This document shows, piece by piece, positions 26,843-32,775 of a stretch of DNA of 64,000 nucleotides. The stretch spans positions 1,364,001 to 1,428,000 of the forward strand of contig NZ_CP014145.1 of the NCBI RefSeq assembly GCF_001542775.1, read 5' to 3'. The notes under the pieces were generated by a model that worked only from the letters and a program-made list of their open reading frames with translations, did not search any database and was not told the origin of the DNA. The number at the start of each line of letters is the position of its first letter. Positions within the stretch are counted from its first letter, which is position 1. The DNA comes from Microterricola viridarii. GTDB lineage: Bacteria; Actinomycetota; Actinomycetes; Actinomycetales; Microbacteriaceae. The translations under genes were made by a program, and so were the position numbers.

Positions 26843-28927
26843 CTAGACGTCGATGCGGTCGCGGGAGAGCGTCTCGGAGCTGTCGACGATGAACTCCTTG
26901 CGCGGGGCGACGTCGTTGCCCATCAGTAGCTCGAACACGCGGCCGGCGTTCTCTGCATCGTTCATGCTCATGCGGCGGAGCGTGCGGTGGCGCCGGTCCA
27001 TCGTGGTGGTCGCCAGCTGATCGGCATCCATCTCGCCGAGGCCCTTGTAGCGCTGGATCGGGTCCTGGTAGCGCTTGTTCTGCTTCTTCAGCCCGGCCAG
27101 GACGCCCTGCAGCTCGGCCTCCGAGTAGGTGTAGATCGTCTCGTTCGGCTTCGAGCCCGGGTTCATCACGACGACCCGGTGCAGCGGCGGAACGGCCGCG
27201 TAGACCCGTCCCTCCTCGATCATCGGGCGCATGTAGCGGAAGAACAGGGTGAGCAGCAGCGTGCGAATGTGGGCGCCGTCGACGTCGGCGTCGCTCATGA
27301 TGATGACCTTGCCGTAGCGGGCGGCCGAGAGGTCGAAGCTGCGCCCGGAGCCGGCTCCGATCACCTGGATGATGGCCGCGCACTCGGCGTTGCCGAGCAT
27401 GTCGGCGACGCTGGCCTTCTGCGTGTTCAGGATCTTGCCGCGGATCGGCAGCAGCGCCTGGTGCTCACTGTCGCGGGCCACCTTGGCGGTGCCGAGGGCG
27501 GAGTCTCCCTCGACGATGAACAGCTCGCTGTTGGCAACGTCGTTGGAGCGGCAGTCGGCGAGCTTGGCCGGCAGCGAGGAGCTCTCCAGCGCATTCTTGC
27601 GACGTTGGGTCTCCTTGTGGGCGCGGGCGGAGATACGCGACTTCATCTCGGCCACGACCTTGTCGAGCACGAGGGCAGACTGTGCCTTGTCGTCGCGCTT
27701 GGTCGACGCGAATCGGGCGGCCATGCTCTTGGCGACGACGTTGGCGACGATGGCGCGCACGGCGGGTGTGCCGAGCACCTCCTTCGTCTGGCCCTCGAAC
27801 TGTGGCTCGGGCAGGCGCACCGTGATGACGGCGGTCAAGCCGGCCATCACGTCGTCCTTCTCCAGCTTGTCGTTGCCCGCTTTCAGCCGGCGCGCGTTCA
27901 GCTCGACCTGCTGTCGCAGGAACTTGAGCAGTCCTTGGTCGAAGCCGAGCTGGTGGGTGCCGCCCTTGGGCGTGGCGATGATGTTGACGAAGCTCTTCAC
28001 GACGGTGTCGTAGCCGGTGCCCCAGCGCAGGGCGATATCGACCTCGCAGTCGCGCTGCAGCTCGGTCGGCAGCATGGCGCCGTGCTCGTTCAGCACGGGA
28101 ACGGTCTCGGTGAAGTGCCCGGTGCCGTTCAGCCGCCAGGTGTCGGTGAGCGGGGCGTCCGTGGCCAGGTGCTCGACGAACTCGGAGATGCCGCCCTCGA
28201 ACTGGAACGAGGTGGTGTGCGGCTCCTCGCCGGTCAGGTCGATGATGTCGAGGGCCAGCCCGGGAACCAGGAAGGCAGTCTGCCGGGCACGGGAGAGCAG
28301 GTCCTCGACCTGGAAGCCTGCACCCTTAGTGAAGATCTGCCGGTCGGCCCAATAGCGGATGCGGGTTCCGGTGACGCCCTTGGCCGTCTTGCCGATGACG
28401 CGCAGCTCGCTCTTCTTCTCGAAGGGCGTGAACGTGGCATCCGGGCTCGGGTTCTTCGGGTCGGCGTCGGCGAAGATGCCGGGCTCCCCGCGGTGGAAGG
28501 ACATCGCCCAGGTCTTGCCGCCACGGTCGACCTCGACGTCGAGGCGCTCGGAGAGGGCGTTCACGACGGAAGCGCCGACACCGTGCAGACCGCCGGATGC
28601 CGCATAGGAGCCGCCGCCGAACTTGCCGCCGGCGTGCAGCTTGGTGAAGACCACCTCGACGCCGCTCAGCCCGGTCTTGGGCTCGACGTCGACGGGGATG
28701 CCGCGCGCCTTGTCGCGCACCTCCACGCTGCCGTCCGGGTGCATCACGATGGCGATCTCGGTGCCGTGCCCAGCGAGGGCCTCATCGACGGAGTTGTCGA
28801 TGACCTCCCAGAGGCAGTGCATCAGGCCGCGCGAGTCGGTGGAACCGATGTACATGCCCGGGCGTTTGCGCACCGCTTCGAGACCCTCGAGAACGGAGAG
28901 ATGGCGGGCGGAATAGTCAGAACTCAC
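26843..28927 (-). CDS. parE: DNA topoisomerase IV subunit B ParE
   Basis: About 694 residues. It is the ATPase partner of ParC. GHKL ATP-site motifs are EVIDNSVDEAL, DKARGIPVD and GLHGVGASVVNALS. The TOPRIM domain has VEGDSALG and DADVDGAHIRTLLL. The C-terminus ends in the conserved PRKEFIVDSSETL segment. The GTG at 28927 was preferred, giving MSSDYSARHLSVLEGL; a TTG nine bases earlier is the alternative. TAGGCT (28936-28941) is a possible -10 eight bases upstream of the GTG, so this start may also be leaderless. Confidence 0.92.
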   Translation of the reverse strand: MSSDYSARHLSVLEGLEAVRKRPGMYIGSTDSRGLMHCLWEVIDNSVDEALAGHGTEIAIVMHPDGSVEVRDKARGIPVDVEPKTGLSGVEVVFTKLHAGGKFGGGSYAASGGLHGVGASVVNALSERLDVEVDRGGKTWAMSFHRGEPGIFADADPKNPSPDATFTPFEKKSELRVIGKTAKGVTGTRIRYWADRQIFTKGAGFQVEDLLSRARQTAFLVPGLALDIIDLTGEEPHTTSFQFEGGISEFVEHLATDAPLTDTWRLNGTGHFTETVPVLNEHGAMLPTELQRDCEVDIALRWGTGYDTVVKSFVNIIATPKGGTHQLGFDQGLLKFLRQQVELNARRLKAGNDKLEKDDVMAGLTAVITVRLPEPQFEGQTKEVLGTPAVRAIVANVVAKSMAARFASTKRDDKAQSALVLDKVVAEMKSRISARAHKETQRRKNALESSSLPAKLADCRSNDVANSELFIVEGDSALGTAKVARDSEHQALLPIRGKILNTQKASVADMLGNAECAAIIQVIGAGSGRSFDLSAARYGKVIIMSDADVDGAHIRTLLLTLFFRYMRPMIEEGRVYAAVPPLHRVVVMNPGSKPNETIYTYSEAELQGVLAGLKKQNKRYQDPIQRYKGLGEMDADQLATTTMDRRHRTLRRMSMNDAENAGRVFELLMGNDVAPRKEFIVDSSETLSRDRIDV

Positions 28928-29145
28928 GACAGCCAAGCCTAGTTACTCTGCAGCCCTTCTCCTGCGCGCGAAACACGCTCAAACCGCGCCGGATCGGGCC
29001 TAGGTCACGACTTGGGCGTCAATGCCTACGCGGTGAGCGAAATAGTGTCGGGATTGGGCATGGAAGGGGCCTCTGCGTGCTTACATGGAGTGTCAGCAGA
29101 TGTTGTGCGGACACCATGCATATCGGTTCGATGGAGGAGGAGCCC

Positions 29146-29382
29146 ATGTCACAGATCACCAGCCCGAGCGGTGCGGTCGACGAGCTCGAGACCCCACACC
29201 AGCTGACGGCCCTTGACCGTTGCGACGCGTGTGGCGCACAGGCCTACATTCGCGTCGTGGTTTCGAGCGGCGAGCTGCTGTTCTGCGCCCACCACGGCCG
29301 CAAGCACCAGGAGAAGCTCTCTGCCCTCGCGCACAGCTGGCACGACGAGTCCAGCCGTCTTCTCGAGGACAACGCCCGCTAA
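29146..29382 (+). CDS. DUF7455-type small zinc-ribbon protein
   Basis: 78 residues from an ATG at 29146 with a strong GGAGGAGG site. A C-x2-C pair (DRCDACGAQAY) and C-x2-H (FCAHHGRKH) suggest one bound zinc. The protein is small and acidic at both ends and widely conserved in actinobacteria near the primary sigma factor, without a known function. Confidence 0.85.
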   Translation: MSQITSPSGAVDELETPHQLTALDRCDACGAQAYIRVVVSSGELLFCAHHGRKHQEKLSALAHSWHDESSRLLEDNAR

Positions 29383-29402: not shown

Positions 29403-30179
29403 CTATTCGCTCTCAAGCCCGAGCCGCACCGCAATCTGATTGCGTGCGGCTCGTGCTATTTCATCAACGGATGCCGCGCGCTCCCCGCGCACGTACTCGA
29501 GACCTGCCCGACGGAACACGCGCCCGAGGAGCTCGTCGGCCAAGCCGGGGTTCTTGGCCAGCACCGGACCGTGCAGGTGGGTGCCGAAGACGTCGCCCAT
29601 GACGACGCCCTCCTGGCCGGAGTCGCGGCCGTTACCGCTGCCGAAGAGCACCCGCCCGAGCGGGGAGGCCTCTGCGTGGTTGTAGTCGCGGGCGTGGTTC
29701 TCGAAACCGACGAGCCGGCCGAACTTGGTCTTGACGACGAGGTCGTCGGTGACGCGCGCCCCGCGGGGCACCGCACGGCCCGGCAAGATGCCGATGCCCT
29801 CGATCGCCCGTGCGGGGGCGCCGTTCGCCCCGGCCAGTTCGATGCCGTGGCTGAGCAGCTCCCAGCCGGTGCCGACGGCGAGGATCGGGACCCCCTCAGT
29901 GCCCCAGCGCCGCAGCTCTTCGAGCAGGGTGCGCAGCTTGTCGCGGGCGACCTCCAGCTCGTTGTCTGAGCCGGAGCCGATGACGACGGCGTCGACGCGG
30001 TCGGGCAGCTCAGCGGCATCCTCAACCTTGACGACCCGGGCGGTGGCGCCGGCCCACTCGGCCCGGCGGGCCAGGACGCGGGCGTTCTCTGCGTCGCCGT
30101 TGCTGTTCAGCAGGCTGGGGAACAGCGAGACGAAGGTGAGCTCTGGGCCGGTCTGCTGCGGGCGCTGGGCGTCGCTCAT
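29403..30179 (-). CDS. GatD-like glutamine amidotransferase without its catalytic cysteine
   Basis: 258 residues, homologous along its length to GatD, which frees ammonia from glutamine for MurT during amidation of the D-Glu alpha-carboxyl in lipid II. Conserved parts are VGFENHARDYNHAE, VLFGSGN and VFGTHLHGPVLAKN with catalytic-type H203. The nucleophile position, normally C-x-G-Y/F-Q in this loop, reads ILAVGTGWELL: Gly (G103, codon GGC) replaces Cys and Glu replaces Gln. It should therefore not hydrolyse glutamine. Its ATG overlaps the murT stop (ATGA), so it is still kept in one operon sigA-murT-gatD. It may now be structural or have a new role. Confidence 0.85.
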   Translation of the reverse strand: MSDAQRPQQTGPELTFVSLFPSLLNSNGDAENARVLARRAEWAGATARVVKVEDAAELPDRVDAVVIGSGSDNELEVARDKLRTLLEELRRWGTEGVPILAVGTGWELLSHGIELAGANGAPARAIEGIGILPGRAVPRGARVTDDLVVKTKFGRLVGFENHARDYNHAEASPLGRVLFGSGNGRDSGQEGVVMGDVFGTHLHGPVLAKNPGLADELLGRVFRRAGLEYVRGERAASVDEIARAARNQIAVRLGLESE

Positions 30180-31449
30180 TCTGGTGCCTCCACGGCGCTC
30201 AGCCCGAGGTGCGCGCGGGTGCGGCGCATCGAGTCGGCGGAAAAGATGACGGTCTTGACGCCGCGGGACGGCTCCGGCATGGCCAGGAACTCGTCGACGG
30301 CCTTGCCGAGGTCGTGCTCGATGCGGCCGATCTGCACATTGTCGTAGCTGAGCTGCAACGCCAACTCGTCGGCCTTGGAGCCGGAGACGATGTCGACCCG
30401 GCCAAGGCCGGAGGTGTCGACGGGCCAGAAGTAGCTGGGATCGCGCACATCGGATCCGACGGCGAACAGGATCTGCTCGGTGTCGGGGTCGAGGTGGTCG
30501 ATGTTCAGCTGGAAGCTGGCCGGGTTCTGCACCAGTACGAACTCCACGGTGGTTCCCCGCACCTGGAGCGTCTCACCGCGCCCGAAGACGGGCGGGATGG
30601 AGCCGATCGTCGAGACGGCGATCGCCGGGTCGAAGCGGCCCCGAGCACGGCCCGGGCGGCAGCCAGGGCAGCGGCAGCGTCGACGGCGTAGTGGGTGCCG
30701 CGGGCAGGCAGCCGCACGGGTGTCGGTGCCCCGCCGTCGATCGTCACCTCTGTGCTGCGGCCGGAGACGGCGCGCACCAGCACGCCGGCCTCTGACGGCA
30801 TCCGGCGCGCCGTCATGGCGGCCAGGCCGAGCCCGCGCGGGTTCGCCTCCAGCACGTCAGCGCTGACGCCGAAGCGTGGCGTGTCGACGGTGCCGCGCAG
30901 GCGCGTCACGATCTGCTCGAGGAAGGCGTCGTCGGCGTTCACCACGACGGCCTGCGTTGCACGCAAGGCGATCTTCTCCAGCATGGCCGCGACCATCTCG
31001 GAGTCGTGGAACCGGTCGATCTGGTCGACCATGACGTTGGTGAGCAGTACGACCTTGGGCTTCAAGGCGTCGGCGATGAGGGCGCCGTGGCCCTCGTCCA
31101 TCTCAAGGACGGCGATGTCACCGGCGATCTTGCCGGTGAGGCTCGCCTCCTCCAGCAGTGCCGAGGTGAGGCCCTGCGAGATGTTGGCCGTCGACGGGTT
31201 GGTGAAGACCCGCTTGCCGTGCCCGCGCAGGGCTGCCACCAGCATCTTGGTCGTCGTGGACTTGCCACTGGACCCGGTGACGATGACGAGTCCCTCCGGG
31301 AAGGAGTTCAGCGTCTCGGTCAGGAATCCCGGGGCAATTTTGTTGACGACCAGCCCGGGGACGGCCGATCCCCCGCCGGGCTTGCGCAGGCGCGCAAGAA
31401 CCCGGACGCAGCGACCAATCAGGATCGCCGGGGCGTAACGGATTCCCAC
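30176..31449 (-). CDS. murT: MurT-like lipid II ligase lacking the zinc ribbon (frame broken by one missing base)
   Basis: When one missing G is restored at 30639-30644 the gene gives 424 residues. It is a Mur-ligase-fold ATPase: P-loop VTGSSGKSTTTKML (58-70), NPSTANISQGL, and TNVMVDQIDRF. The C-terminal DUF1727 domain follows the break (TTVEFVLVQNPASFQLNI, YDNVQIGRIEHDLGKA). In S. aureus MurT a four-Cys zinc ribbon sits in the central domain; here the matching region (about 190-250) has no cysteine at all. The only Cys is C14. The GTG start at 31449 is 4 bases after the sigA stop. It partners the GatD-like protein downstream. Confidence 0.85.
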
Positions 31450-31453
31450 CGGC

Positions 31454-32775
<1,322 letters not shown>

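Follow-up and report, generated by a model that had tools for sequence, protein, structure and literature searches.

Between an rpoD-type sigma factor gene and a parE/gyrB-type topoisomerase gene, Microterricola viridarii carries a MurT-GatD pair whose GatD-like member has no glutaminase nucleophile, which raises the question of what reaction such a pair could still serve. We examined the pair in a stretch of 64,000 nucleotides (the window, positions 1,364,001 to 1,428,000 of contig NZ_CP014145.1) and compared it with its relatives in the Microbacteriaceae and in other families of the order. The features discussed below are collected in Table 1.

Table 1. Positions of the MurT-GatD pair, its diagnostic residues and its neighbours, numbered from the first letter of the window.
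Feature	Position	Strand	Basis
parE/gyrB-type topoisomerase, downstream border of the slot	26843..28936	-	
DUF7455 protein between gatD and parE, often in the neighbourhood	29077..29382	+	
gatD, GATase_3-fold partner without glutaminase nucleophile (258 aa)	29403..30179	-	
His203 codon (GTHLHGP), retained	29571..29573	-	translation, alignment
Gly103 codon ggc, at nucleophile Cys position (GTGWE)	29871..29873	-	alignment, family column
murT part 2, in a different frame: MurT C-terminal domain; overlaps gatD start by 4 bases	30176..30562	-	
DVRDPSYFWPVD: NDxYADG (DNAAD) loop short by three residues, triad Asp retained	30416..30451	-	
QNPASFQLNID, signature in place of KNPAGFRxxL of MurTs with a Cys-bearing GatD	30497..30529	-	
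murT part 1: Mur ligase middle domain; final ~40 codons out of frame relative to relatives	30505..31449	-	
murT frame break, approximate position; absent in four congeners and in locus L170	30620..30650	-	
MurT P-loop GSSGKST	31255..31275	-	
rpoD-type sigma factor, upstream border of the slot	31454..32686	-	

The GatD-like open reading frame of the window scored 69.7 bits against PF07685 in a Pfam search and aligned with the GatD of Staphylococcus aureus (6gs2) with an E-value of 9.5e-26. In this alignment G103 lies opposite the nucleophile Cys, as the initial annotation had proposed, and the C-x-G-x-Q nucleophile motif of the MurT-GatD isoglutaminyl synthase is absent. The catalytic-type His of the HGP motif, which the same annotation had read as retained, is indeed present as H203. 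The scores against the NCBIfam equivalog models were 109.2 bits against a cut-off of 450 and 92.9 bits against a cut-off of 400 for GatD, and 77.4 bits against a cut-off of 800 for the first part of MurT. A search of the same genome for a second intact murT-gatD pair found none; MurT_C has a single match genome-wide, and PF07685 has three further, weaker matches elsewhere in the genome.

The MurT-like gene of the window is split over two frames. The first part contains the Mur ligase middle domain with its P-loop (PF08245, 53.3 bits) and the second part, in another frame, contains the MurT C-terminal domain (PF08353, 30.9 bits) with the triad Asp, a residue of the DPS motif that is invariant in 41 relatives. 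The P-loop and the C-terminal domain were therefore described correctly at the outset, but the frame break that separates them was missed. In four genomes of the same genus (L007-L010) and in Microterricola pindariensis (L170) the gene is a single open reading frame, and the break in the window could reflect either an error of sequencing or a genuine lesion.

The Cys-to-Gly change in GatD is real and is a trait of the family. Among the 299 Microbacteriaceae genomes searched, 232 had a GatD match, and the protein was read in 79 family rows picked to span the genera rather than at random (L026 and L053 represent one gene). The nucleophile column of the 79 rows contains Cys in 7, Gly in 56, Ala in 11, Ser in 2, Thr in 2 and Asn in 1. 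GatD is accordingly Cys-less in 72 of the 79 family rows and in 0 of the 43 rows that represent other families of the order. The order search had yielded matches, many of them weak, in 136 of 248 genomes; the 43 rows comprise 23 of its loci and 20 more from outside the family. The His was kept in 61 of the 79 rows within the family and in 42 of the 43 outside it. In a MurT tree of 120 rows, several of them long, all 71 Cys-less rows fall on one side of a single branch (SH-aLRT 99; 0 of 500 shuffles gave a value as low), while the seven family rows that retain the Cys group with the other families. A second tree, from which six long rows were removed and to which three divergent rows were added, recovered a Cys-less clade of 68 rows with an SH-aLRT of 100. 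The main Cys-less MurT clade has one origin. Two genomes, G225 and G050, have one Cys-less and one Cys-bearing pair each, on different contigs (L043-L044 and L074-L075). A contig binned as Acidobacteria (L125) has a Cys-less pair of the Microbacteriaceae type near parE and is probably misbinned. The distribution section of PMC6085368 describes the operon as universal in Actinobacteria, with no mention there of a Cys loss.

The loss of the Cys is accompanied by changes in MurT. The NPAG stretch is the binding place of the incoming amino acid in other Mur ligases. In both main types of Cys-less MurT (types 1 and 2), NPASxQLNxD replaces the (K)NPAGFRxxL of MurTs that have a Cys-bearing partner, (LPA)RGxHYAxDA replaces GxYNxxNA, and three residues of the NDxYADG (DNAAD-type) loop are gone, whereas the P-loop and the triad Asp stay; the P-loop and other Mur positions are invariant over 41 sequences of the Cys-less clade. 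The DNAAD motif of S. aureus MurT, which is suggested to contact the stem peptide (PMC6113224), has no full counterpart in the window protein. MurT and the Mur ligases remain the nearest relatives of the window protein in sequence and in fold, the fold search leaving MurT tied with other Mur ligases (rows within 1 Z). The window pair thus differs from the MurT-GatD isoglutaminyl synthases of S. aureus, S. pneumoniae and M. tuberculosis by the missing nucleophile Cys and DNAAD-type loop, by its altered NPAG and GxYN motifs and by scores far under the equivalog cut-offs, and glutamine cannot be its nitrogen donor by the known mechanism.

The initial annotation had placed the missing four-Cys zinc ribbon of MurT alongside the loss of the GatD Cys. 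By motif search the absence is real and nothing special: none of the family loci L001-L075 has CxxC...CxxC, not even the four whose GatD is intact, and outside the family only 4 of 43 MurTs paired with a Cys-bearing GatD have it. Since the other 39 of these 43 lack it too, the ribbon does not define a functional pair, which is consistent with its presence in a subset of MurTs only (PMC6113224). We consequently dropped its loss from the explanation, most Cys-bearing pairs read in the order being without the motif.

The Cys-less pair has a fixed chromosomal address. The usual arrangement in Microbacteriaceae is rpoD-murT-gatD-parE, and we refer to the interval between rpoD and parE as the slot. 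Among loci L036-L075, rpoD and/or parE is in the same stretch for 33 of 36 Cys-less loci, and neither is in the stretch of the four Cys-bearing pairs. A single pattern scan on codons for NPxSxQLNxD returned 93 stretches, of which 80 are listed as named loci; this set covers only species that bear the signature, and 78 of the 80 have rpoD and/or parE. The named loci include Agromyces, Clavibacter, Cryobacterium, Herbiconiux, Leifsonia, Mycetocola, Okibacterium, Plantibacter and Subtercola. The Cys-less pairs found off the slot are L042, L043 and L052. Two of these, L042 (G145) and L052 (G111), are second copies in genomes that also have a slot pair, and L043 is the Cys-less pair of G225. A slot-type MurT follows rpoD even in the reduced genome G013 (L266), whose contig of 927303 bases has the length expected for Tropheryma whipplei.

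A minority of genomes have a different enzyme at this address. For 20 genomes without a strong MurT match, the 14 kb that follow rpoD were read (8 kb for one of them), and slot contents were counted from gene calls and clustering, with Pfam searches on part of them (PF01996, PF14397 and the racemase families). Fifteen of the 20 (L267-L286) contain, after rpoD and before parE, a gene resembling the F420-0:gamma-glutamyl ligase CofE (PF01996). In three of the remaining five there is a divergent MurT; L285 is devoid of these ligases, and L282 carries racemase genes alone. A MurJ gene is present in one of the 20 slots. Across the 299 family genomes, a profile of the F420-ligase-like protein matched 49 at E<=1e-30, 46 of them at E<=1e-100, and the MurT profile matched 243 at E<=1e-20, with 21 of the 243 being weak (1e-28 to 1e-49). 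The 46 and the 243 do not overlap in a single genome, where 37.4 would be expected (hypergeometric P about 1e-44, uncorrected for relatedness), and 10 of the 299 genomes have neither ligase. Weak F420-ligase matches (E 1e-38 to 1e-48) coexist with a MurT-profile match in G049, G112 and G134; the F420-ligase matches of G049 and G134 are located off the slot. Both kinds of ligase occur within 12 genera, among them Agromyces, Marisediminicola and Microbacterium, the Cys-less pair itself having been read in nine; the swap has therefore happened repeatedly. The F420-ligase-like kind is found in the Paramicrobacterium genomes and in half of the Microbacterium genomes that have either ligase, including Microbacterium terrae (G195).

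An ATP-grasp gene is also frequent in the slot, being found in 15 of the 20 genomes without a strong MurT match, and it could be the real bridge ligase in such loci. It also adjoins a MurT pair in L072, L270 and L277. As the ATP-grasp gene can thus coexist with MurT, the substitute for the Cys-less pair is the F420-ligase-like protein. The divergent MurTs of G029, G026 and G107 (L270, L275, L277) are only 22-29% identical to the others compared and sit at the end of a very long branch, apart from all other rows of the tree. Their GatD partners have FTHNA for the Cys motif and Ile for the His of the HGP motif, and the sequences suggest that this second pair with a dead glutaminase likely arose separately.

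In some genomes the slot also has racemase and diaminobutyrate genes. An alanine racemase gene is present in the slot of 10 of the 20 genomes without a strong MurT match; in Paramicrobacterium humi (G001, L279) a slot racemase accompanies both the F420-ligase-like and the ATP-grasp gene. Two of the 20 contain a diaminobutyrate transaminase (TIGR02407, 603 and 602 bits, cut-off 552). Next to a Cys-less MurT, a racemase was found in 25 loci, all with type 2 MurT and four of them representing the same genome twice; it lies directly beyond gatD in all 25 and between gatD and parE in all 21 for which parE is in reach. The window genome, whose MurT is of type 1, has two racemase genes, neither of them in the slot. 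As a possible marker of a wall containing diaminobutyrate (DAB), the TIGR02407 transaminase gave no clear picture: it was found in 10 of 25 genomes, out of step with the genera expected to have DAB. The MurT type found no support as a marker of the diamino acid. Clavibacter, with type 2, is described as B2gamma (PMC9603630). Agromyces, with type 1, is a DAB genus as well.

In group-B peptidoglycan the D-Glu alpha-carboxyl carries the bridge, and in Clavibacter this bridge is described as a D-DAB that runs from D-Glu to D-Ala (PMC9603630). The wall of Subtercola is B2gamma (PMC5945732), and the Cys-less pair is present in both Clavibacter and Subtercola (L137, L158). Paramicrobacterium, whose genomes have the F420-ligase-like gene, is described as B2 with D-Orn (PMC10757982). 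These wall types were taken from papers on a handful of genera and not from the genomes analysed here; for Microterricola, none was found in the open-access literature searched. The relation between the Cys-less pair and a group-B wall is not one-to-one, given that the Paramicrobacterium genomes and half of the Microbacterium genomes with either ligase have the F420-ligase-like kind. Leucobacter is described as cross-link type B with DAB (PMC4804768), yet G291, whose GatD is nearest to Leucobacter records, has only a Cys-bearing pair off the slot (L067), an rpoD-parE interval of about 0.5 kb without a ligase gene (L257) and no match to the F420-ligase-like profile. An intact Cys-bearing pair outside the slot was seen in the Leucobacter-like genomes (L067, L219, L222, L223; L257). 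Since Leucobacter is of type B without a slot ligase, either there must be another route to the bridge, or the slot is tied to the bridge less closely than proposed here. The open-access titles and abstracts searched name no enzyme for the first step of the 2->4 cross-bridge in group-B peptidoglycan, nor do they name this MurT/GatD trait of the Microbacteriaceae.

We propose that the Cys-less pair probably serves as the ligase module in a cross-bridge island that Microbacteriaceae have between rpoD and parE, judging from its sequence and its gene neighbourhood. MurT would still work as a Mur ligase and use ATP to phosphorylate the D-Glu alpha-carboxyl of a lipid-linked, or perhaps nucleotide-linked, precursor, and an amine would then attack the acyl phosphate. 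Because a Cys-less GatD cannot split glutamine by the known mechanism, this amine would not be enzyme-made ammonia; it would most likely be a free amino acid, either the interpeptide D-diamino acid (D-Dab, D-Orn or D-Lys) or the glycine that in some types precedes it. CofE-type enzymes form an amide with an amino acid and not with ammonia. In the simplest account the F420-ligase-like enzyme, like MurT, would attach the bridge amino acid at the D-Glu alpha-carboxyl. GatD may stay as a structural partner that completes the active site of MurT, for which a Cys-to-Gly GatD of S. aureus offers a precedent. The C94G substitution in that protein abolished glutamine-dependent amidation and left ammonia-dependent amidation unaffected (PMC3266927), and GatD was still required for the ammonia-dependent reaction (PMC3266927, PMC6085368). 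By this precedent, a MurT that draws its amine from solution can work with a Cys-less GatD. The initial annotation had already suggested a cross-bridge ligase derived from an amidase. That suggestion has gained indirectly from the spread of the Cys loss through the family, from the constant position of the pair, from its mutually exclusive replacement by a different amide ligase and from the racemase and diaminobutyrate genes of the slot; its zinc-ribbon argument turned out to be irrelevant, and the MurT frame of the window itself is broken. The retention of His203 and of the triad Asp speaks against the cross-bridge reading, as a pure scaffold would not need them.

The amino acid joined by the pair could also be glycine alone. 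In some B types a Gly separates D-Glu from the diamino acid, and an ATP-driven, tRNA-free addition of Gly to D-Glu was reportedly described in Micrococcus in the 1960s. The pair might accordingly add glycine to the D-Glu alpha-carboxyl and leave the diamino acid to another enzyme, such as the ATP-grasp protein, whose gene adjoins either kind of ligase. We consider this division of labour unlikely, since the slot racemases point to a D-amino acid and since the Clavibacter bridge is described as D-DAB alone (PMC9603630) while the Clavibacter stretches have the pair without an ATP-grasp gene.

Another reading keeps the Cys-less pair an amidase, one that uses free ammonia, GatD being a mere channel or cap and MurT making D-isoglutamine from cellular NH3. 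The S. aureus MurT and GatD C94G do amidate with ammonia, as seen at pH 8.5 (PMC3266927), and the retained His203, triad Asp and HGP interface motif would fit such a function. It would not account for the derived motif changes common to the Cys-less clade, for the replacement of the pair by an F420-ligase-like enzyme or for the racemase and diaminobutyrate genes in the slot. Furthermore, the D-Glu alpha-carboxyl in group B is taken by the bridge (PMC9603630), leaving little to amidate. We therefore give a free-ammonia amidase only a slim chance.

Relatives of the F420 ligase act on a cofactor, and the slot enzymes may be imagined to modify a different small molecule, be it a cofactor or a wall polymer, instead of peptidoglycan. 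An F420-ligase-type gene of Streptococcus pyogenes is described in a wall-modification operon whose chemistry is unknown (PMC13059722). Such a substrate appears improbable to us, considering that the slot MurT is nearest to MurT and the Mur ligases in sequence and fold and that some slots contain an alanine racemase, a diaminobutyrate transaminase and, once, MurJ. Finally, the broken murT frame of the window and an in-frame stop inside five GatD matches, among the family matches listed, might suggest that the pair is a decaying relic, but we regard this as barely credible and discarded it in view of the intact congener frames, the 41 sequences of the clade in which the P-loop and other Mur positions do not vary, and the conserved slot.

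If the pair is a cross-bridge ligase, it would differ from known enzymes that build peptide bonds on wall precursors. Compared with MurC-MurF and the pseudomurein peptide ligases, its MurT would have the D-Glu alpha-carboxyl as acceptor and it has a GatD partner; the N-terminal part of the protein is short, as in MurT. Aslfm-type ATP-grasp ligases add a D-amino acid to a peptidoglycan precursor independently of tRNA, but they differ from the pair in fold and in acceptor, which for Aslfm is the L-Lys side chain. The slot version of the CofE family occupies the place that the Cys-less MurT has elsewhere, the two being mutually exclusive in the genomes searched, and belongs to an unrelated family; it scores 27.9 bits against TIGR01916 (F420_cofE), under the cut-off of 180.65. 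Caution is warranted with automatic names in this region, as public records label slot genes coenzyme F420-0:L-glutamate ligase, and a GatD that lacks the glutaminase residue still scores as a glutamine amidotransferase domain.

Taken over the family, the gene content of the rpoD-parE interval raises a wider possibility, to which we give close to an even chance: the interval may be where group-B cross-bridges are made, and three amide ligases of separate ancestry, namely the Cys-less pair, the divergent pair with its dead glutaminase and the F420-ligase-like enzyme, may replace one another at the same step of group-B cross-bridge formation, beside racemases for D-diamino acids. An ammonia-channelling amidase would then have been turned into an amino-acid ligase, perhaps twice, with the glutaminase kept as a shell. 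The comparison provides a short list of candidate bridge-ligase genes and a slot in which to inspect them in most Microbacteriaceae genomes, and the genera that contain both kinds of ligase constitute a natural experiment.
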